Below are positions 22 through 64,000 of a stretch of DNA of 64,000 nucleotides, in pieces. A program made the translations under genes and the position numbers. Source of the DNA: Gamsiella multidivaricata. Lineage: Eukaryota > Mortierellomycota > Mortierellomycetes > Mortierellales > Mortierellaceae. Each line of letters begins with the position of its first letter. Position 1 is the stretch's first letter. The stretch covers positions 975,573-1,039,572 of the forward strand of contig NW_026251710.1 in assembly GCF_025024155.1 (NCBI RefSeq), given 5' to 3'. The notes beneath the pieces were generated by a model. It had not been told where the DNA came from and did not search any database. It saw only the letters and a program-made list of their open reading frames with translations.

Positions 22-1142
22 CGTTTCCTGGCTTGAATGTTATCGCGCCGTTCTTTCCCATTGTCAATGCATTCCATTTGCAGACGGCGAAACGTAGACC
101 AAAGTTCCTCGTATTGCAGCATCTGGTGGGACTGAGCTTGCTGCACATGCTGCAATGGTGTCTGCTTATGGTGCACAAACACCTGTAGAGAGGTCGCAAA
201 GGTCAATTTCTTGTCGTTTTTGAGAATGACACGACTGTTCGACAGGTACTCTTGCACCATCTCAGCTGGATCTAGAATTAAAAGGCAGGCAGCAGCAACA
301 CAGTTAGAGTTGGAATTTGTTTACAAGAACACGCTAGAGTCTTTCGGTTGAACGCTAAACATTACCCTCTCCCTTTAACTGCTTAATGATACTGAAATTC
401 GTTACACATCCCAATGAAGGAACGTTGGCGTTGTAGTCGTTCGATGAGACCACACCCAAGACTATGAGTTGCGTCCTGTTGATTCCAAGAGTAGTCAGGA
501 CATCGGGGACGTTGTACGCAAGGATGCGTCCTCTTGATATTGGTCGCCAGATGATCGAAATGTGTTGGTAAAGGAGCATATCACTGTCTCGCGATAGGAC
601 AACGTCTCCGGGCAAACAGTCTTGCGCAATTTTGAGATCCGCCTCGGTCGGGCACACTTCTACAGACCACCCTCTCTGTTGTAAATACGCTGCAAACGCT
701 TGTCGAGCCTCGAATGTCCAATAGAACCCCTTCGCCAAGTTTTTCTTCAGGCGAAAAAACAACTGCTTCCTCACACGCAACTTCTCCTTCACCCGAACCT
801 TGAGTACGTCGATGTCGCTCTCAACCAACTTTAAAGCCTTCATACGGTTGTTTTGCCGACGCTGGTGTGTCAAATCCTTTTCCTGACAGGGAGTGCCATC
901 AAGGTACAGAGCGAGTTGGTCGGGGTCGCGAACTTCTGTATTTCTCTCTCGACGATCGAGTGGGCAGTATCCATGTCGTGGAACGAATAGGCTTGGCGGA
1001 TAGTTGAGAAGTGGGTGCCTTGTATATCCACGTGTAACTTGGAACCGTTCTGAAGATGACTGGAGAGAATGTATCGTCCGTCGAGCACCTCAGCTTCATA
1101 GCCTTTCTTATTCAGAAAAGGCCAGAGGCCCTCAATGCCCAT
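22..1142 (-). pseudogene. FEN1/XPG-like flap-nuclease gene, copy 1, frameshifted and cut by the window edge
   Basis: Reading starts at the ATG at 1142 (MGIEGLWPF...), a typical XPG N-terminus with a VDIQG acidic strand. The sequence continues as YLDGTPCQEK, the second half of the XPG-N domain. Between 925 and 932 the frame moves by one base, so N-terminus and core are in different frames; this is a one-base deletion or a sequencing error. The core holds the XPG-I signature: EAD at about 645-652 and SRDSD at about 586-600, the metal-binding acids of FEN1-family nucleases. A 94-bp intron (272-365, GTAATG...CTAG, phase 1) joins to a second exon starting DPAEMVQEY. The exon appears to end at a donor at 21-20 and to continue off the left edge. 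Known family role: structure-specific 5' nuclease. The role of this variant is unknown. It lies head-to-head with the MULE transposase gene, 204 bp between start codons. A related copy lies at 60159-62008. Confidence 0.7.
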
Positions 1143-36220: not shown

Positions 36221-38849
36221 TCATCGTGGCATGACTACTCTGGTGTGTGCTGGCTTGACGGTCTTGCTTGCTGGCGGAAAACGTTTGTTGACCCGCGCTT
36301 GCTCGACGCGCAGAGCTGCCTTCTTCTTGTTGAATGCCTCCATCTTGGATCTGTAGTCTTCGGCGAAGGACGTACGGTAGCTCTTTGAGGCGTCATCCAT
36401 GCGTTTGCTCATGAGAGTATCTGCAAGCAGCTCCACTTGTTTCCTGTATCGCCTGTGCTTCTTTGAGGTCATCAAAACTGCAGCGGCACTCAATAGATTG
36501 ACGATATTCTCGCCAACAGCTTTGTCCCCTGTGACCTCCTCCTCTTCACTCTCCCAATGCTCGTCGATAGATCCTTCCTCCTCAGTCGAAGTTGTTTGTG
36601 GTCCCGACTGGTCAGTGTCAGAGTACTCTGAGGAAGCCAATTGCTCGACTCGGCTCATATAGACGCGGCTGTGTAAAGGCTTGTTGATATGTTTGGGCTT
36701 CAGAGGAGACCCTCTGTCGTTGGTTACCACCAAGAATGGATTGGGCACCACCACGAAATCGTCGTCTTCCGCGCCTTCGCCATCACTTGTGCTCTCTAGC
36801 CAGTCGCCATCCAAAAGCTCCGAACCCGTCTGTAGTGACAAGAAGAAGGACATGAAATCGGGGTCCTTCTGTAGTTGATCAATGACTTCGCATATGTAAG
36901 GCGAGCCATCCAAAAGTTTCGCGGTTGAAGCCAGCAGCTTCTCATGGCTCTCAAGAGCACCCATGATTGAAACACCTCTTGATATTGCTGACGAAGAGCC
37001 ATCTTCTGGGACGAGGGCGTTTTGTTCCGCGGCGTCCATTAAAATATCTAGGACTGGCGTTGTTGACGAGCCGCTCTGACCTTGGTCTCTGCCACTCACT
37101 GAGTCGTGGTAACCCTGCACCCTGAACCGATGGAGAATGTTTTGCTGGGTCTCCTTGAGCGCCGCAACCACCTCCTCTTCTAAACAAGTGTGCGTTGAAA
37201 GTTGCTGTTTTTGGGCCTCGCCGAAAATGGGGACGTGTCTGAAGCAGCTCCGGATGGACTTGCCTTCCACCTCGTTCCAGGCAGCAGCTATCATGTGCCA
37301 TCCTTCGAGGTTGGACACCCTAAAAGACCCATCCTTCTTCGACTTCATGGCCTTGTCGACTGCCTTGGCCCTCCTCGTGTTTTTTTTTCCCTTGCTGGCC
37401 GCTTTAGGAGGCGCATTGGGGTCTGGCACTGGCTGGGAGGATTTGAAGACACGTAACTTTAGGATGAGATTACGATACCGCCTCTTGAAAACAGCAATGA
37501 TTCCTGCGTCCAGGGGCTGTGTTACTGATGTCGAGTTCGGCGGCAGAAGCAGCAGTTTGATGTTCGGAAAATCGACACTGCACCGTTCTACCACTGCATG
37601 GCATGATGCATTGTCGATGAGCAGGACCACGCGCCGATCAGGGTCCTCCGCGACGATGTCCTGCTGGAACTGGCGCAGCCAGTGGGTAAAGGTATACTTG
37701 GTCATGTAATCTGCTCGCTTGTTAGTCTGCCGCTTCTGCGCCTGGGTATGCTGTGAAGTGGCCTCCTGTTGCTGGTGTTGTGTATTGCCAGGTGCGCCAT
37801 CTTGTCCACTAGCGTCATGATGCTGTTGCTGGGCGACTGCCGCTGCTTTAGCTGCCTTGGACTTGCGTGGTTGCTTTGCAGTATCCCATGGCATGACATC
37901 CACCAAGCGCTGCAGCGTTTCATCTTTCCTGAAGCCAGAAGCAAGGTTTTCGCCTAAATGGATCCAAATATGATCAACATGGCATCCAGCATAAAAAAAT
38001 AAAAATAAAAATAAAAATAAACCATGTCTCTCCTCGTTCCGAATATCAACTTCTGACAGGATACTTACTGAGAATAAAAGGCTTTCGCTTGTCGCTTCCT
38101 GTGGCATTGGTGCAGAAGAGAATGGAGACGCGCGATGCTGGAATGGCTGCTCCGGCCTTCATCTCGACATCGAGCGTCCAACTTGAGGTGGTCTGCAGGT
38201 AAAGGCCAGTCTCGTCGGCGTTGTAGATGTCATTCAGATCATAGGTCGCAAGAATTGACTTGAGACCCTCCACTTGCCCCGCTATCGCATCCCAATCAAC
38301 CGACCCTGCCTCGCCCATCAGCTTATGAAACGACAGTCCCCAGGTGGCCTTGAAACTGGCTACCCAACCGGACGAGAATCTAGGCTTTTCAAACGTGAGT
38401 GGTCCATTTCTTTCCACAAGCAGGTCGTATACCTCTCCTGCAAGCAACTGTAACAGCCATTGATCTACCGGCACGTTCATTTTACGGAGACGTTGGATCT
38501 CCTGGTGAAGAATCGTCTCGACTGGATAAAACTCGCGGATGTGGGCTTTGGTGTAGCACCTTGTATCCAAAGAGCCGGTAGGCATTTTGTTGATAAAAGG
38601 CCTCATTTTTATGAGTCGGGTGATCGTTTTAGGTGGCAGCTTGTTAGCCGTCTCAAAGTCTTTCATTGATGGTGATAATTCTGGTACAGGATTGCCAAGC
38701 AGGTCCTGATAGCCTCTGTGAAAGATATCCCAATTGTCCATGATCCGCTTTTTGCTAGCAAGTGTCCAACTACCGCGACCTGCGTCCGACAATGAAGCGT
38801 CCTCGCTCGACTTAGGTCGGTCCAGCGCGTCTGCAATCTTAGGAAGCAT
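36221..38849 (-). CDS. pogo/Tigger-like DDE transposase
   Basis: Two exons (38849-38069 and 37953-36221, phase 1, intron 115 bp) encode 837 residues. The N-terminal part resembles CENP-B/Tc5-type helix-turn-helix DNA binding (HREFYPVETILHQEI-like region and RFSSGWVASFKATWGLSFHK). The DDE catalytic core has YNADETGLY, LLIDNASCH and QPLDAGIIAVFKRRY, giving DD-about-30-D spacing between the last two. A Gln/Ala/Lys-rich insert lies between the first and second Asp. The C-terminal third is acidic (VTGDKAV, EEEEV) and then basic. The enzyme would cut at the flanking 148-bp repeats and insert at TA. The ATG at 38849 (MLPKIADAL) is preferred, since the open frame upstream runs into the inverted repeat. 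Confidence 0.9.
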
Positions 38850-55153: not shown

Positions 55154-57282
55154 TGTGAACAAGGGCGGAGTAAAACAAGGCGGGAAGTACCAATTTCTAA
55201 TATGGCAGAAAAAAAAACGAGCAATTGTCGCTTGCGTTGCAAAGGAGGCGTGAGGATGGGATTTGGAGGCGCTATGGTGTCGTCTGTTTGCCTTTGTGGA
55301 GAGAGGGATTTGGCGAAAGGCACAGCAAGCAAAGGTCTTCCTTGTAGGAAAATAGAGGTGTGAGATTGTGGGGTACCAAAGGTGTGAGGTGTGTGGACTA
55401 ACAATGAAAAGCAGAGGCCACCAAGAAGTGCGCAACAAAAAAAAAATCAAGAAAAGCAAAGTAAGGGCGAATGCGCAAAAAGCGGGGTTGAATCTGAATG
55501 GAGTTGAATGACGGAAAGAAGGAGAGGTGGAGAATGAGGAAGAGGAGAAGAGAAAGGTGAGGTGTGCGTTCCACCATTGTCCTTTGAACTTTGAAAAGGA
55601 GGTAGGGCAAGTAACCAAAAGAAAAAAAAGTTAGGGGGCAGCCAGCAAGTAACCCTTACTCCCCAAAAAAAAGTGTTTAAGGCTTTCCTAGACAGTAGCT
55701 GACACTTCCCCCGTGGCGAATGCGAATCAGATCCATCCATCCATTCCATGTCATCACCATCGCCATCGCCATTTCCTTCGCCAGCAGCGTCTTCTTCCCA
55801 TTTATTTGTATGGCCTCTTCGTTTTTTTCAGGAACGCGACTTTCATTGGTCGGTCTATTGCTTGCCACCAACTCTTTGCTTTCAGTTCCTCGCCTGACCG
55901 CTAATGTTTTTACACTACCTGTTTTCGTTCGCCTCCCTCAATCTACTCCAAACACAGATTGCAGGTCAAATACCGCAAACGATCTCTATTGATCATCACG
56001 GCTTTTGTGCTCTATTTTTGTGGAGAAATCGGAATAAATAAAGTGCCATGCACAGTAAGAGTGCAAGCTTCTGCATGTATCTGCACTGCATGCATATATC
56101 CTTTTGAAAATCCATGTTAAATAACTAACAGGAGTCGTCTCAAGAGGCGGAATATCATCAAACAATTAGACAATGGATAAGTCTTTGTCGCCCCTGGATT
56201 TCTTTTTTTGTTAAACCAGATGCGTCCCCTCCGCGCACTGGCCAATTTTCCTTTTTTTCCGCTCCGTGGCTTCCTTCCCAACAAAAGCATGGCAAAATTC
56301 ACTGCTTGAAATACAGCATACAGCGTACAGCCTAGCACACAGCTGTGCCTCTTTGCACCTTGCCTTTGCAAGCCTACGGATCACCAGCGCTAAGAATAAA
56401 ACTGATCTTCCGCAGCATATTCTAGGTCATGTGCTATATAGGCCATACCAGACTAGTTCCCTTCACTCCCTCCGAAAAAATAAGATGCATTCAGTGCAAA
56501 ATAAACCTTAGGTTCGGTGAGAGATTGGTGGGTTAAAGATCCCGAAAGATAGGGAGGGTACGAAGACAAGATAGCAGATGAATAAACGGTTTTAACACTA
56601 AACGTGAAGGGTCTTTAATAGAAAAAGACAATTAATTGGTCGAATAAATCTACCATATCAAGTGAGTATCTATCCCATGCCAGGAGGAGCCAGGAGGGAC
56701 CTAGGCATCAAGTTTATTTCAAGTATATAGATCATGTTTTTGTATCTACAGCAGGATTATGTCGAGAAAGTTCGTCGTGTATGATGATCGACACGGTAGT
56801 GGAAGTACAACGTGTGGCAGAACAATATATGGAATTAAGGCGATCGTCATCGGCGAAAGATAACAAGGGAGGAAGGCGCAGTGAGAACAAACGGGATATA
56901 GAAAGGGTAGGTCCAACGTGGGCGAAGCATTTAGAAACGGTGAACGATGGTAAATAGGACTAAGGCATAGAAAATAGAAAGCGGCAGAGAAGGAGATGGA
57001 CTATTTTAAACGCGAACCCTCAAAGACATTAGATCTATTGAAGGAAACCTGTAGGTGGGTCAGAAAACGACGGAGATGGATGAAAGCAAGAACCTAGGCA
57101 CATTTTTTTTAACATAAATCCACATGAGCACGAGACGCATGGTCTGCAAGCAATTTTTTTTTTCTCGAGTCGATTGACCCTACTACAGTATCTGTCTACC
57201 CAAATCAAGTAAAAAAGTGACTGGTTAGAATTCGGGTGTTCATGCATGTTATTTTTTGTATGTTGAACTTACAAACTTTGAA
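55154..57282. other. intergenic region between Grr1-like gene and Fanzor gene
   Basis: About 2.1 kb without a gene. The first 500 bp are the pyrimidine-rich leader (on the minus strand) of the Grr1-like gene. No frame in 55.7-57.2 kb has recognisable protein features. The far end may belong to the Fanzor element, but I found no inverted or direct repeats that would mark its boundary. Confidence 0.4.
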
Positions 57283-57300
57283 AGAGGGTTCCGACCCCCT
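57283..57300 (-). other. perfect 7-bp hairpin just downstream of the Fanzor gene
   Basis: On the minus strand AGGGGGT CGGA ACCCTCT forms a 7-bp stem (one G-U pair) with a CGGA tetraloop, 50 bases after the Fanzor stop codon. In TnpB and Fanzor systems the guide RNA is encoded beside the nuclease gene, so this is a candidate piece of it; a chance hairpin or 3'-UTR element is equally possible. Confidence 0.35.
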
Positions 57301-57349
57301 ATGATTATGTTGATGGCATGAACTTGGTAAGCTGGTACTGGTTCTGGAT

Positions 57350-59875
57350 TTACGACAGACACACGGTGGCAATGTTCTCAGAGCCGACAATATCGCGATC
57401 AAAGTACATTTGGCAGCTTCGGCAGTACTTTGACCGCCTCTTGTCGGACTCCAAGAACGCCATACACTGGTCACGAGGGCACCGAGCACTGGTGTAGTAC
57501 TCGTGCACCCCGACCACAGTGTGTCCCATAGCCTTTGCCTATCAGCAGCGTCAAGGAACAAACAAAAAGGTGAGAAAAAGTTGCAGTGCGGATGAGAGAT
57601 GGTATGCCACCCTTTTTTTTTTTTTTCCTTCTTCTTACCTTGCCGACAAATTTCTTCTCGAGTGCGCTATGCTTGCTTGGCAGGCCAGTTTGCGAATCAA
57701 AAGAGCCCAATTCTATTGCAAACACCACTTTTACACCATCCTTCGAGCTCAGCGGCTGACCAACAAAGTCCTTGCTGACGGCGAGGTGAAGCAAGGCCGC
57801 AACTGCGTAGTCATACGTTGCCTGTTGAGCCTTTTGAAGATCCCAGCGCTTCCTTAGCATCCACTGACTGTTGTAAAAGTTAAAAAGGCGGATTCTCGTG
57901 GCGGTCGCGGCGGTGCCGTCCGTGCTAGGCGCCTCAAGGTACGCCAGATATTCCTCGATCTTCTCCACGGTAAATGAGGGCAGTCTTGCCTCAAGAACAT
58001 CAATGCGTGTCGCGGCCTTCTGCTTTTCTAGGAGACGCTTGAAGAGCATGTAAGGCCTGTAGAAGAATGCCCTGCGGATTTGTAAAGACTCTCTTTTCGT
58101 AGGTAAGGCGGGGTCGATTCTTGTCGCTGTCATTGTGTAAACCTCACCCGGGTCAATGCCGATGACCACAGTATCGCCTGGTGGACAAGTGCCAGGAGAG
58201 TTGAAGCGCACCTCCACGTTTTCTAGGATCTTTGAACTTCGCTTCCAGTTGATGGCGTTGCGTGTGACATCGATCGTATCTGCGCCTGACGTTGGACCAG
58301 ATGGAGCTCCTGAGCTGGATGAGGACGAAGCAGTCGCAGTAGGGTCTGTGGGTGGCAGTTGGTGTATCGACAGCCTCTGCCGCTTTGAACTTTCTGGCGT
58401 CGAAGACGGGAGCGTGATGTGTTTCTTCTTGACGGGTCCCGCCTTAGCTGCGACCGGATCTGTACCAGATTCGTCCCCTCCACTTTCAAGAAACGCGTCG
58501 TCGAGGTCATAGTCACCGTCAACATCGTGGAACAGGGTCACATCCTCGTCGTCGTCGTGTTCTCTTTCATCGTCGTCATCGCCCCTGATGCTTTGGCGGG
58601 GCGCTCGGCGTCGTGTTGTCGTTGTGTCATGCGCAAGAAGATGCAACACCAGTCCGTTCGTGCAGATGATGCCCCGAAGCTTGAACCTTGTGTGGTGCTG
58701 TCTGTCACTCTGAAGCGAAACCTTCCTGTAATACCCGTCAAAGCGCGTCGCCGAGTCCAGTCTGTATAGCAGCTTCTCGATGAGGATCCCTTTCTTGCCG
58801 ACGACCTTGGCTTCCGCAGCGTTGGATGTTGTATCGCTCAGCATTCGGACTATAATTGGCCGTGTCGTATTGCTTGTATAGAATAAATGGACAAGGTCCG
58901 CCTCTAACAAGAACACGAAGCCAGCTGCAAACTTTGCCTTGACAAAGTCTGCAAACATGCGCTTCTCGGTATTCTTTTCGAAGAAGTAGTCAATCGAATT
59001 AACAGTTTCGGGGCGCTCTTCATTCTCGGAAAACTATTAAAGAAATTTGAAGAGCTAATGGTCAACACTAGTGCTCCGAAAAGCAAGGAACACAACGGAT
59101 ACATCTTGCACACTCTTTAATATACCTTTGCGCCATAGTAATGGACTCGGACTGCATTGTAGACTGCCGCAACAGCAAGCTTCGAGACCGTCGAAGGGAA
59201 CATCTCTGGTTCTCGTTGGCGAAAGGGGACAAAGCCGGTGAGCGTCGTGTACGCATCAAAGACACGTCGGGCATGGGCGGCTGTTGGTTGTGGTTATGGT
59301 TGTGGTTGTGCCTGTGCTTGCGGTTGCGGGACGCCAGGGACCAACGGCGTATTTCGAACGCTCATCCTGCGCGCAGGGGCAACCGATACTCGAACAGCCT
59401 GAGAACATCGTCCTTCTTGACCACTGCACAAGAGTGTGTTGAGTGCAAAGTAGAAGGCCTTGCTGTCGATAATGTCTAAAATATCCTCCTTCCGCTGTGT
59501 CACATCTGTCACTGTGTCCTTGGAACGAACAAGCCGCGCGATATCCAGTGCAATAGCCTCGTACATATGCATCTGGATCGCGTTAAGGATCGCAACCGTT
59601 GAACGTAGCCTGTCTGAAAGGAACCTGCTTTCTGCAACCGAGATCTGATCCATTCGCTTTATGTTGGCCTGGATACTCCCCACAGTGAGTGCCTTGGTTA
59701 TATGCAGCTTGCGGAGGCGGCGGTCCGCTGCAGTTGCAGAAGTGGGTCGTGGATTCGATGGGTCGGCAGAGCCCACCCCTTTCCGTTTTCTCGGCAGTGC
59801 CCCCTTCTTCCTCTTTTTCTTGTTCTTCTTCTTCACGACCGCCTTCCGAGTCTTGACGGGAGGTTTTGCTTTTGG
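57350..59875 (-). CDS. Fanzor (eukaryotic TnpB-like RNA-guided nuclease), one in-frame TAA
   Basis: Exons 59875-59126, 59033-57639 and 57538-57350 join in phase 0 (introns of 92 and 100 bp). RuvC-I: VVIGIDPGEVY; RuvC-II: FAIELGSFDSQTGLPSKHSAL; zinc finger CPRDQC...CRSC; RuvC-III: FDRDIVGSENIA. With numbering from the ATG at 59653, the acids are about Asp470, Glu617 and Asp690, so the D-E-D site is complete. EYYTSARCP before the finger is a Fanzor/TnpB hallmark. Upstream of 59653 the frame stays open with a Lys/Arg-rich NLS-like stretch (KKKNKKKRKKG), but no ATG is found there; the first exon may be missing or the start lost. A TAA at 59294-59296 interrupts a CAACCA repeat linker (CAA expected). 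Known family function: omega/fRNA-guided DNA cutting linked to transposons. Intron content suggests a Fanzor1-type gene. Confidence 0.9.
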
Positions 59876-60110
59876 CTGTGGGCGATCGTGAGGTACGGCA
59901 GTCGAGAAGTGTGACGCGGTCGAGGGAGGAAGGTGTGGATATCAAGAGTCGAGTCAACCACGGATCAAGATCAGGAGTAAGTTGACAAGACTTACGAGTC
60001 GTGGGGGGCTCGAATGTTCGAAAGGCAGGGTAGGCAGGTAAGTGTATTGAAGAAGAATGTTTATTTGTGTGGTCGAGACTCCGGAACTAATCTTGGAGGG
60101 GAACACACTC

Positions 60111-60122
60111 CAGCTTATATAG
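60111..60122 (-). promoter_or_regulatory. TATA box of the Fanzor gene
   Basis: Minus strand reads TCTATATAAGCTGGAG. It lies about 240 bp before the Lys/Arg-rich coding start and about 40 bp after the stop codon of the XPG-like gene copy 2. Confidence 0.55.
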
Positions 60123-60337
60123 AAAAATAAAGATAAAAAAGGATGCGTCTAGATCTCTTCAGGCATGTAGAGTATCTAGCGCGTTATAAAGTATGGAGTA
60201 CCCGCGTGAGCACTTGGTCATCCATTGTAAAGGATCTAGGCTTCTAGGAAAATGGTTATTAGCCTTGACGAGCGCGTAGGAGACGCGTTGTTGAGAATAA
60301 CCTTTTTTAAAAAAGAAAAGTAAAACGAAATTGGCGA

Positions 60338-60355
60338 ATCGGACTCGCCGTAAAT
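60338..60355. repeat. target-site duplication of the LINE, downstream copy
   Basis: atcggactcgccgtaaat on the plus strand, identical to 61227-61244. It borders the poly(T) run (60355-60372). Confidence 0.93.
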
Positions 60356-61226
60356 TTTTTTTTTTTTTTTTTATTGACGCCAGATCCCCCCAGGCGTGCA
60401 GGCGTGCCACAGGCTGCATTGTCCAAGCCTCGGCTTGGACTGTCAGCCGGCCGATAGTTACCTAAAGATAGCTATCAAGAGGCCCCCACTAAACTAATGT
60501 AAAATGAGGAACCAAATACCTATGGTGCACATTCTGAGTCGTATGGTTTCTAATACTTGAGCCGGGGCCCAAAACCGCTACGCAACCTGTCGGGTCCGAT
60601 GGGTCCTCTCCTAGTCAAGATCACGGGCCAATATGAATTTTATCCTCCTTCCTCTCTCCATCTCGTTCAACACCACCTTTCCCTGGAGATGGTCCACCAA
60701 GCGGCTGTCTGCTCTCCTCCTCGCCGCTGTCGTAACCTCCTCTTGGGGCTGTTGTCTCACAAAGCCCTGGGTCTCACCTCCTACCTGGACCCCGGCTTTC
60801 TTCATCCTCGTGCATATGCCCTCGGACTTTTCCCATGCCACTGTGGCACTACATCGCTCCTTCCATAACTCCTCTCGGCCAAAAGCCTCAACTCGTTCTA
60901 CAAAACGTCCAACCAGGTAGGCCGCGATACTCTTCGACGTCTTCAAGAGTAGCGCCCAATCCGTTGTCAGGAACTTTGGTATGAGCCCGTGATATATGTC
61001 TGTCGTTGTCCATAGCCTGGTAGGCGGTGCTGCCTGCTGTACGTTTTCTTGACTGCTCACTCCTTCTCCTTCTTCCTCGTGGACATTCTCTCTGTCCTCG
61101 CCACCATTGTCCCTGTCTCGCCGCTCCTCCAGCAGCCTTATCCAGTCATCATCCCGCGTATCCACCATCGTTTCCACTCCCCGGATATCACGCAGACTCC
61201 ACCAAAGGGTGTCTAACTCGCACGGG
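60356..61226 (-). mobile_element. 5'-truncated LINE (non-LTR retrotransposon) with poly(A) tail
   Basis: An 871-bp insert flanked by the 18-bp direct repeat ATTTACGGCGAGTCCGAT (minus strand). It ends in about 17 A on the minus strand directly before the second repeat copy, the signature of target-primed reverse transcription. The first 616 bp (to 60611) keep an open frame for the C-terminus of a LINE ORF2-like protein: LWTTTDIYHGLIPKF and ELWKERCSATVAWEKSEGI, a W-K-x-R-C...W-E...G-I pattern seen after the RT in fungal LINEs. About 240 bp of 3'-UTR follow. The reverse transcriptase is missing, so it is a dead copy. It sits in the coding exon of the XPG-like gene copy 2. Confidence 0.85.
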
Positions 61227-61244
61227 GATCGGACTCGCCGTAAA
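61227..61244. repeat. target-site duplication of the LINE, upstream copy
   Basis: atcggactcgccgtaaat on the plus strand, identical to 60338-60355. Removing the insert and one copy restores a single uninterrupted frame of the XPG-like gene across the site. Confidence 0.93.
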
Positions 61245-62008
61245 TAGAGTGAGCAACCGTGCCAAGGTTTGGTCACGGGAGCAGCCACACTTTTACAAGA
61301 AGTCAATCGATTGTCGTGGTAGGGTCGATTTCTTGTCTGAAAAGATCGGCCGGAACTGGCTCCGCTTTGAGTTCCTCGCAACGTAGAAGGGAACCGCACT
61401 AGTAAATATACGCATACATCGCCATGCAAAAGGTGTTAGAGAACTTGATATCTGTACAACGCGTGCGTGAATGAAGTGGTGTCGCACTTAAATTACCTTC
61501 TATTCTACTCGCATGCTGATATGCAGCGACGGCAAATCGCTGCAGCTTGAGGTGCTGGAACTGCGGTTCTGCACTGTTGAAATCAAAGCCGAGCATGTCT
61601 TCATCGGCGGCCTCATCTCCTGGCTGCAGTTGGAGCACTTTCTCCTCGAGATCCAAAAAGATGTCTTCCGATGGCTTGAATCGGCCCTGGTCGATAACCT
61701 CGTGGGTTTTGATGGCTGCCATGAATCTGTAAGCATCGAGCATATGGCTAATATCGGGCGACTGGGGTAGAGCGCGGATGATCTCCAAGTTGCGAACTAT
61801 TCCAAGGCCGGGAATGTTCTCGGTATAGTCGTTCTTGGACACGATGCCCAGTAACGTCACATAGTCTGCGCTGGGGACGTGAAGTGCATTGGTAACACTC
61901 TCCTTGGTATACAATGCATAGGCCAGGCCGTGGAAGATCGGCCGCAAAACCTTGGTGACCGACGGATATATCAACAGATCGGAATCTGCTGACACCACGA
62001 AGCTACCG

Positions 62009-62609
62009 TGTAATAGCAACAAAAGGAAGGAAGGAACAAGTGCAGGAACAAGAGGACACGAGGTAGGAACACGAGAGGCAGGGGACAAGAGACAAGGGCT
62101 AGAACGGATGATTTTTATTATACAGAGAGATAGAGGTATTTATACTAATATACAGGGGGCGCAGTGGTGGAGGCGCTGTCAGGAACAGACTTGGAAGAGT
62201 GGTATATGTGTTATGGAGGAGACAGACAGTGGACAAGGTAAGGAAGAAATGTATTGCAGACTGAGGTTATATGCTATGGATTCTATGGCTCTATTTATGT
62301 GTTTCTAGGATTCTTGGTCAGGGTACTCGGATGGCTACTACGGGACGCGAGGTATATTTGCTAGGAATAGCACAAAGGTATGGATCTGGTGCAATGGTTC
62401 TAGACGGGCCGGACAATGGTTCTAGGCGGGCCGGATAATGGCAATATCAATAAAGATACTTCGTTGAACATATGTTGATCGAGCATACGGTGGCAGAGGT
62501 ACGCGTGCAAGCGCGTGAGCGCGTAGAAGCAGTCACAAATCAATATGAGCAATTGTGTGCGCAGCTCAACTGTCACTCTGCACCACACGCTATGGTGCTA
62601 TCCGTGACA
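62009..62609 (-). repeat. 3' LTR of the gypsy element (601 bp)
   Basis: On the minus strand it starts TGTCACGGATAGCACC and ends CTATTACA, the TG...CA rule. A polypurine tract AAGAGAGGGGAT (62610-62621) lies just upstream. A TATA box (TATAAATA, 62137-62144) and, about 20 bp on, a polyadenylation signal (AATAAA, 62114-62119) define promoter and end signals. A 22-bp tandem duplication (tggttctagacgggccggacaa-type unit, twice) lies at about 62394-62440. Confidence 0.85.
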
Positions 62610-62619
62610 ATCCCCTCTC

Positions 62620-64000
62620 TTAGGAGCGACTTCCAGGAGCGACAGGAACTGGACCGGGCTTTGCTGGATACTGGCGATGGAACTCAGCAATGAGCTCTGG
62701 GCAGTGTGAGACATTTGCAGCGGGTTCCCAAGATCTCTCATCTGGAGGAAAGTCTTTCCAATCGACCAGGTACTGTAACTTGCGGTTGCGCAGTCGTGAA
62801 TCCAAGATGACTTCGACCTCATACTCGATCTGACCTTCGACTTCGACAGGTGGGGCAGGCGGTGCGCTACGGTTCGGAATCTCATTAGCCTGATGAGGCT
62901 CTAGGAGAGACACATGGAACACAGGATGTATTCGTGCCATGGAGGCAGGGAGCCGGAGTCGGAAAGCACGAGTCCCTACGTGTTCGAGGATCTCGTATGG
63001 CCCCAGCTTGCGGTAGTCAAGCTTGTCGGAAGGGCGCGTGGTCTTGATGTGTCGCCTCAAGAGCCAGACTTTATCACCAGGTGCAAAGTCGGGGGGCGCT
63101 TGGACATGCTGATTGAAGTAGCGAGCCTGGGCTTCTTGCGCAGCGCCGATATGGAACTTCAAGTCATCCTGCAGTCCCTTCAACAGCATGATTCGGGCAG
63201 AGGCGGCAGGTGAGTGGCGGGACACGCGTGGGATGTGGATGCTGAACCGAGGGTGGTATCCATACAAGGCCATGAACGGAGTCTGGTTCGTCGAGGAGTG
63301 AACGGTATTGTTGTACGTGAACTCGGCTAAGGGCAGGAGTCTGGACCAGTCGTCTTGCTGATAGTTCAAGAAGCAACGAAGGTATTGCTCAAGCGTTGCA
63401 TTGGTTCGTTCGGTTTGGCCATCAGTCTGTGGATGAAAAGCCGTTGACAAATTCTGTTTGACCTTTAGGGCTTCCATAAGCGAACGAGTAAACTGGGCGG
63501 TGAATGTGGTGCCACGGTCGGAGACAATATCGTCGGGGAGACCGTGGGCACGGACGACTGTGTCTAGGAACAGGCTCACTGTGCCGGCAGCATCGACCTC
63601 GTCATGCGTAGCAACGAAGTGGGCCATCTTGGTTAACCTGTCCACGAAGACTATGATGGACGTGAATCCATGGGACGCAGGCAACTGCGTGATGAAGTCC
63701 ATGGAGATTGAGGACCAAGGGCTCTCTGGTATAGGTAAGGACTGAAGGAGGCCATAAGGCTTGTGATGGACAGACTTGTTCCTCTGGCACGTATCGCAGG
63801 TACTGACAAAACGTTTCACATATTGGCGAAGGCCTGGCCAGTGATAGGTTCGATTCACGAGCTCGAATGTCTTCAGGAGGCCAAAGTGGCCTGCGGTGGG
63901 GTCGTCATGGCAATGGACCAGGATATCTCGGTGAATGTCATCGGCGTCGGGGACATAAATTAGGCCTTTGTAAAACAGGAGGCTATCCTCAATGGCGTAG
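62620..64000 (-). CDS. gypsy pol, integrase with chromodomain (partial)
   Basis: An open frame from the right edge to a stop at 62620, about 460 residues. An HHCC zinc-binding module (HDDPTAGH...CDTC) is followed by the DDE integrase core: MDFITQLP (first Asp), IVSDRGTTF (second Asp) and GQTERTNATLE (Glu). KLGPYEILEHVG is the GPY/F module. A chromodomain follows (EYEVEVILDSRLRNRKLQYL, DWKDFPPDERSWEP), which in chromoviruses steers integration to particular chromatin. No frameshift or stop is seen, so this copy may be recent and intact. The ATG/GTG at 63858 is not a real start, as the frame is open to the edge. Confidence 0.93.
   Translation of the reverse strand, partial: YAIEDSLLFYKGLIYVPDADDIHRDILVHCHDDPTAGHFGLLKTFELVNRTYHWPGLRQYVKRFVSTCDTCQRNKSVHHKPYGLLQSLPIPESPWSSISMDFITQLPASHGFTSIIVFVDRLTKMAHFVATHDEVDAAGTVSLFLDTVVRAHGLPDDIVSDRGTTFTAQFTRSLMEALKVKQNLSTAFHPQTDGQTERTNATLEQYLRCFLNYQQDDWSRLLPLAEFTYNNTVHSSTNQTPFMALYGYHPRFSIHIPRVSRHSPAASARIMLLKGLQDDLKFHIGAAQEAQARYFNQHVQAPPDFAPGDKVWLLRRHIKTTRPSDKLDYRKLGPYEILEHVGTRAFRLRLPASMARIHPVFHVSLLEPHQANEIPNRSAPPAPPVEVEGQIEYEVEVILDSRLRNRKLQYLVDWKDFPPDERSWEPAANVSHCPELIAEFHRQYPAKPGPVPVAPGSRS

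Follow-up and report, generated by a model that had tools for sequence, protein, structure and literature searches.

A Fanzor-like locus in Gamsiella multidivaricata

Does the Fanzor-like sequence at positions 57350 to 59875 of a 64,000-nt stretch of Gamsiella multidivaricata DNA represent a working nuclease gene, and what sets it apart from known Fanzors? The stretch, hereafter the window, sits on contig 93 of the 37.5 Mb genome that we searched. The original prediction saw in it a candidate new Fanzor system, namely a nuclease gene with a complete RuvC site. The candidacy stands for another reason: Fanzor and an XPG/FEN1/EXO1-like nuclease domain apparently lie in one polypeptide, a predicted fusion that we regard as very probable. 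As for the gene itself, it is almost certain that such a family exists and that its window copy is a relic.

The Fanzor half belongs with Fanzor1

The assignment to the Fanzor family was right. The Fanzor-like coding sequence extends over 57350-59909 on the minus strand in three exons, separated by the two GT..AG introns foreseen by the original prediction, and the RuvC-I motif IDPGE, EYYTS, the CPRDQC...CRSC finger and DRD are all readable (Table 1). At 13 other places in this genome the protein encoded by exon 3 is matched at 78-93% identity, so the Fanzor sequence of the window is no chance match. Three protein searches combined returned 17 proteins, 15 of them with a named source (Mortierella alpina, M. 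antarctica, Podila verticillata, P. humilis, Entomortierella and Benniella, all genera within Mortierellaceae) and all of these 15 annotated as hypothetical or unnamed. No relative outside Mortierellaceae was found among the named matches of these searches, which are limited to proteins with short exact words in common and of which two scored just the best ~8,000 candidates; a wider occurrence is possible. A scan of IMG/VR with A3 for viral relatives gave 101 pattern matches, none of which was confirmed.

In the structural comparison with Foldseek, ranks 1-7 were all Fanzor1, and the mimivirus Fanzor2 appeared at rank 14; in the VIA comparison, Fanzor1 likewise took ranks 1-7. The modelled half is predicted to have the Fanzor1 fold rather than that of Fanzor2 or TnpB. 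The zinc-ribbon/TNB family PF07282 exceeds its curated cut-off in 8 of 12 scanned proteins (P0001-P0005, P0013, P0015 and P0017), P0016 falls slightly under it (25.7 versus 26.3) and P0006-P0008 have no match.

On the other hand, the RuvC site was not correctly read. The glutamate of AIELG, which had been counted among its acids, stands in a column occupied by glycine in 16 of 18 aligned proteins (lysine in C166, cysteine in P0003). Among the 14 close loci, this column has glycine in 10, glutamate in 2 (the window and C175), lysine in 1 and arginine in 1. According to Yoon et al. (PMC10711439; here and below, this paper, PMC10432273, PMC11107001, PMC11423790, PMC12719977 and PMC11521923 are cited for the portions available), the catalytic glutamate of Fanzors is the one six residues before the zinc finger, and DPG is also named as a feature. 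A glutamate six residues ahead of the first zinc-finger cysteine (Ealt) is found in 15 of the 16 proteins covering the site, P0008 being without the cysteine, and DPG in 13 of the 17 aligned proteins covering RuvC-I, the rest having DSG, EPG, GPG or DLG. In the window copy, this Fanzor glutamate is that of EYYTS, and the glutamate of AIELG is not catalytic. The distance from DPG to this glutamate amounts to 172-200 residues in the 10 proteins measured; the spacing in the search pattern of Yoon et al., 120-160 residues, is shorter (PMC10711439). C166 has GRD in place of the DRD seen in most others.

An XPG/FEN1-like domain precedes the Fanzor

The gene was thought to be limited to about position 59875. 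Instead, it runs on upstream through an additional intron into an XPG-like exon. The same layout is found in the copy C166, whose exons of 1040, 886, 1365 and at least 200 nt join in frame over introns of 98, 92 and 106 nt (the last exon was taken up to 200 nt, before its stop, and one stop in the first exon was entered as X). With the resulting protein as query, eight proteins were retrieved, and the query is covered to 100% by P0001 (1,186 aa) and P0003 (1,121 aa) from Mortierella alpina and by P0002 (1,183 aa) from Logan. Overall, the two parts are found together in proteins of Mortierella, Podila and Benniella. The family protein appears to start with an XPG/FEN1/EXO1-like domain (~345 aa), which a basic linker connects to a complete Fanzor1 (WED/REC/RuvC/zinc finger). 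An MG.. start of the XPG-like domain is present in C166 and in 9 of the 17 proteins (P0005 and P0009 once extended; P0006 with an internal gap), P0004, P0008, P0012 and P0014 start within this domain, and P0010, P0011, P0016 and P0017 start at its end or later.

The identities of the two halves correlate (r 0.88, 55 pairs); since the pairs share common ancestry, this indicates joint inheritance, not interaction. The median ratio of nonsynonymous to synonymous substitution rates (dN/dS) for exons 1, 2 and 3 is 0.49, 0.56 and 0.53, respectively (13 close copies, 78 pairs each), which suggests that constraint on the two halves is of the same order, decay having diluted it.

Alternatively, the element could carry two separate genes, an XPG-like nuclease beside a Fanzor, merged wrongly by gene predictors. 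Indeed, read-through of the first donor site leads to an immediate stop, and an unspliced transcript would yield the XPG part alone; furthermore, P0010, P0016 and P0017 start inside the linker or the Fanzor part, an observation that partial gene models explain equally well. However, the gap between the parts is just 98 nt and has intron signals in both C166 and the window. In six copies (C142, C175, C139, C166, C27 and C115b), exon 2, the start of which is the linker, shares 40-41% identity with P0003, and six of nine proteins have no methionine, and hence no start codon, from about residue 345 to the first Fanzor strand. Finally, at the distant locus L047 the XPG-like domain and the basic linker share a single open frame, and the Fanzor exons after it contain the motif VDPGE. 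We consider the two-gene arrangement improbable and retain the fused protein.

How often the two parts occur together was examined throughout the genome. With the exon-3 protein as query, 79 rows matched, and collapsing them by hand left 56 loci: 14 in the close family, counting the window, and a further 42 that are more distant. The corresponding search with the XPG exon yielded 93 rows, or 83 without second pieces. A same-strand XPG row lies at most 6 kb upstream of 33 of the 56 Fanzor loci (13/14 close, 20/42 distant), against a chance expectation of 0.007 per locus, i.e., about 0.4 in total. A further copy, on contig 25, has the XPG exon and the two ends of the element, but most of its Fanzor exons are missing. 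Some of the leftover XPG rows may be XPG-family genes of the host, for example RAD27 or EXO1. An ordinary single-domain Fanzor1 element with the XPG domain as a chance neighbour would fit the 23 of 56 loci without an XPG match within this distance, as well as the variable 5′ ends of the copies, but it is at odds with the counts above and with the two-part proteins of three genera. This reading is scarcely credible and already refuted for the present family, although a distant family could still be without the domain.

As to the nature of the domain, the open frame upstream in C139 begins MGIRGLYSTLKKRGL and holds IHIDG, RTEADTCIA, SADS and KNDYTENIPGLG. Compared with PDB sequences, the XPG exon matches yeast Rad2 at E 8.8e-6, and a profile of the fused proteins matches Rad2 (2e-4), an XPG/FEN1 chimera (0.0026) and EXO1 (0.0038). 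In the fold test, the predicted model of the N-terminal domain has the XPG/FEN1 fold. No single origin of the domain was singled out by comparison with EXO1, FEN1 and Rad2. The acids that we take to be those of the FEN1 metal site, the later ones of which also align to Rad2, are kept in every protein covering them: DLxG in 10/10, DG in 10/10, ExD in 9/9, DSD in 11/11 and ND in 14/14. The second residue of the motif is D here, where we take FEN1-type nucleases to have EAE.

The domain might nevertheless be a DNA- or RNA-binding platform devoid of nuclease activity, the Fanzor being otherwise ordinary. XPG relatives with other roles exist, such as MKT1, and one of the acids is missing in L047, which has Q for the E of the EAD pair. 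In addition, the scores against the Pfam models tested (XPG_N, XPG_I and XPG_I_2) stay under the curated cut-offs: 18.3 versus 24.2 bits for XPG in P0003, 14 versus 22 for XPG_N, and 22.3 versus 24.2 for the XPG score of a second locus in the window (355-873). For this reason we call the domain XPG/FEN1-like and do not count it as a family member. Against a mere platform speaks the retention of the acids in all aligned proteins covering them, and we hold this alternative to be rather unlikely.

The window copy is a relic

The window copy is a dead relic with at least four lesions, which contradicts its description as a nuclease gene with a complete RuvC site. Two retrotransposon insertions, an internal stop, an early stop and an N-terminal XPG half without a row identify it as such. 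The in-frame TAA, which the original prediction does not mention, interrupts the Fanzor frame within exon 2. The final stop comes 15 codons early as compared with C139, C171, C115b and others; in the DNA alignment this position is a sense codon in 11 of 12 other copies, C27 also having a stop. The 1,388-bp piece in exon 2 has no counterpart in 12 close loci aligning on both sides, and a thirteenth, C50, matches the window in part; the TG..CA ends of the piece between two CTTCT repeats identify it as a solo long terminal repeat (LTR). A Ty3/gypsy element with integrase and chromodomain abuts the point at which homology breaks off. Other copies run further upstream than this point, and in the genome search residues 1-173 of the XPG exon have no matching row beside the window copy on contig 93.

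Table 1. Position of the XPG-Fanzor relic and associated features in the window.
Feature	Position	Strand	Remarks
Exon 1, 3′ half: XPG/FEN1-like, SADSD and NDYTENIPGLG motifs	61497..62008	-	91% identity to C139 XPG exon residues 174-346
Intron 1, 98 nt, GT..AG, between XPG and Fanzor exons	61399..61496	-	Splice motifs as in C166 (also 98 nt)
Exon 2, first part (linker)	61298..61398	-	
Solo LTR, 1,388 bp, TG..CA, in exon 2	59910..61297	-	CTTCT direct repeats 61298-61302 and 59905-59909
Exon 2, remainder: basic linker and start of Fanzor WED/REC	59126..59909	-	In-frame TAA 59294-59296
Intron 2, 92 nt	59034..59125	-	
Exon 3: REC/WED and RuvC-I (IDPGE; D 58152-58154)	57639..59033	-	Non-catalytic E 57711-57713
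Intron 3, 100 nt	57539..57638	-	
Exon 4: EYYTS E (57500-57502), zinc finger, DRD (57392-57400)	57350..57538	-	Premature TAA 57350-57352
Element 3′ end, finishing AGACAGATACTGTA; candidate guide-RNA scaffold, weak evidence	57184..57349	-	Exact in 10/14 loci
Ty3/gypsy (chromodomain) retrotransposon	62009..63999	-	Pfam rve, Integrase_H2C2, SH3_Tf2-1, Chromo; cut by window end
Putative 3′ LTR of Ty3/gypsy	62009-62609	-	TG..CA; LTR-like end abuts homology break 62008
Ty3/gypsy frame: integrase, Tf2-1 SH3 and chromodomain	62620-63999	-	
Second, more distant XPG-Fanzor locus: XPG-like N-terminal part	353..1142	-	Fanzor part left of window, contig 93: 972743-973180

The XPG-like part of the second locus apparently contains one frame change. 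Elsewhere in the window, an open reading frame for a DDE_1 transposase lies at 36221-38107 on the minus strand (Pfam E 9.3e-23), and Rfam and tRNA scans of the window gave nothing at the thresholds used.

Element ends and candidate guide RNA

The boundaries of the element, described earlier as not evident, emerge from the comparison of copies that the original prediction had recommended. The 3′ end (window 57184) is identical in 10 of the 14 loci and has one change in C142. The flanks past it diverge, save for C139 and C171, which have 3.5 kb more in common. A common 5′ end, (T)ACTGTGACGGTATTTGC, is reached by four copies (C171, C139, C142 and C25), and the two ends are 6.1-6.3 kb apart in the three copies measured. 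The other copies start elsewhere. Likewise, the 5′ parts of the MCi-2 family of Mucor are variable (PMC3627910). Loci L014 and L015 (contigs 139 and 171) are 98% identical over 9.7 kb from the element 5′ end and have different 5′ flanks; their extension 3.5 kb beyond the usual 3′ end possibly reflects read-through transposition. At L010, L019 and L013 (contigs 115, 175 and 126) the shared homology does not start until a 5′ point closer in, ~1 kb within the longest unit.

Terminal inverted repeats of the Mariner/Tc1 or MuDR type were considered and rejected, the 5′ and 3′ ends not being mirrored; few copies have both ends. The 3′ end presumably resembles that of Tc1, but a Tc1/mariner reading with TA target duplication fails on the same lack of mirroring. 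A possible target duplication, the 5-bp TAATG, was seen in C142 only, and this genome yielded no empty site.

For the guide RNA there is a weak candidate at the 3′ end. A lone 75-bp 3′ end with 97% identity lies on contig 99 (392661-392735), a contig without any row in the Fanzor search. It resembles the 'ghost' loci of SpuFz1 (PMC10432273) and is possibly a ghost guide-RNA locus.

Proposed mechanism and relation to known systems

Computation yielded a family with its copies, fused open frames and gene models, two folds and conserved active-site residues. On balance, the explanation that we favour is a degraded Mortierellaceae element family encoding an XPG-like plus Fanzor1 protein that would cut, resect and copy. 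The mechanism itself is put forward tentatively. The fused protein would bind a guide RNA derived from the 3′ end of the element; the Fanzor RuvC site, guided by this RNA, would cut the allele without the element; the XPG-like domain would degrade or trim the 5′ ends, by EXO1-like resection or FEN1-like flap removal; and repair would shift to homologous recombination with the element-bearing copy, by which the element is copied. The relic in the window is itself unable to perform these steps.

This scheme agrees with the view of Saito et al. (PMC10432273) that TnpB-family nucleases retain their elements through a cut in the sister copy, which forces copying by recombination. In the same source, SpuFz1 cuts give 5′ overhangs and no transposase was found between the repeats of the SpuFz1 elements; such overhangs are what a FEN1/EXO1-type domain in the same polypeptide would act on. 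Alternatively, the XPG-like domain may process the guide RNA or the displaced R-loop strand instead of resecting ends. However, SpuFz1 and GtFz1 function with guide RNAs without such a domain (PMC10432273), and to us this role seems doubtful compared with end resection.

Several observations weigh against the explanation as a whole, in addition to the loci without an upstream XPG match, the incomplete acids of L047 and the Pfam scores. Splicing was deduced from sequence motifs, and in other species, too, the fused genes are predicted models. All 13 close copies compared have a lesion: 12 contain in-frame stops, and C115b shifts frame between its pieces. The fused-protein profile matches SpuFz1 by sequence at E 0.017 only, window exon 3 alone gave no Fanzor match in the PDB, and the model of the whole protein is middling (predicted local distance difference test, pLDDT, 64; predicted template modelling score, pTM, 0.44). 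The last 200 bases of the element fold slightly better than shuffled sequences (z -1.78, copy C171) and a double change occurs in 1 of 45 consensus pairs, the covariation term being positive; in view of this weak fold and single double change, the guide RNA is a candidate only. Finally, no transposase was found; upstream of the XPG start, only one minus-strand open reading frame of L009 was checked, with no Pfam match.

The closest known systems are the Fanzor1 proteins SpuFz1 of Spizellomyces punctatus (PDB 8gkh/9cey) and PpFz1 of Parasitella parasitica (PDB 9cf0). Most Fz1 proteins have 600-700 aa and a conserved domain order (PMC11423790). By contrast with SpuFz1 and PpFz1, the family described here has ~1,120-1,500 aa and an extra N-terminal nuclease-like domain, and no inverted repeats were found at its ends. 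It resembles the MCi-2 Fanzor1 elements of Mucor circinelloides (Bao and Jurka 2013, PMC3627910) in a common 3′ part with Fanzor, a variable 5′ part and no inverted repeats; however, a word search of PMC3627910 found no mention of an XPG domain, and MCi-2 target duplications measure 11-12 bp, as opposed to at most one 5-bp case here. Unlike FEN1, EXO1 and Rad2-XPG nucleases, the XPG-like domain forms part of a Fanzor and scores below the Pfam cut-offs. Among engineered enzymes, T5exo-ErCas12a reportedly joins an RNA-guided nuclease to a 5′ exonuclease; we take its exonuclease and that of EXO1-Cas9 to belong to the FEN1 superfamily. The EXO1-Cas9 'exonuclease editor', which raises homology-directed repair and lowers end joining, likewise combines an RNA-guided nuclease with a 5′ exonuclease (PMC11107001); here the combination is that of a natural mobile element.

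A word search of open-access papers, a scope that leaves out most subscription journals and bioRxiv preprints and gives no proof, found no report of a Fanzor-nuclease fusion. No open-access paper combined 'Fanzor' with 'XPG', or 'XPG' with 'transposable element' and 'Mortierella', and looser searches gave, among the matches listed, none resembling such a report by title or start of abstract. Word searches with terms varying per paper found no fused nuclease in the available portions of the Fanzor papers PMC3627910, PMC10711439, PMC10432273 and PMC11423790. In those of PMC10711439, 'fused' is used solely for tags; Fanzor, FEN1 and flap endonuclease occur in unrelated places of PMC12719977, and PMC11521923, which contains Fanzor, exonuclease and domain architecture, mentions only engineered fusions in the text available.

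What, then, might this family be? Speculatively, it is a natural 'cut-and-resect' homing system, in which a transposon-borne guided nuclease carries its own FEN1/EXO1-type 5′ nuclease and breaks are resected, then repaired by copying the element. It is conceivable, at a similarly low level of confidence, that such a system has come to occupy dozens of loci of a Mortierellaceae-like genome, belonging to several divergent families. For the role of Fanzors in eukaryotic elements, an end-processing nuclease would offer a direct handle on the cut-and-copy idea, which is testable because each active site can be disabled within one protein. The family would also be nature's counterpart to the Cas9-exonuclease fusions built by engineers, and would supply large Fanzors that probably have a second activity.
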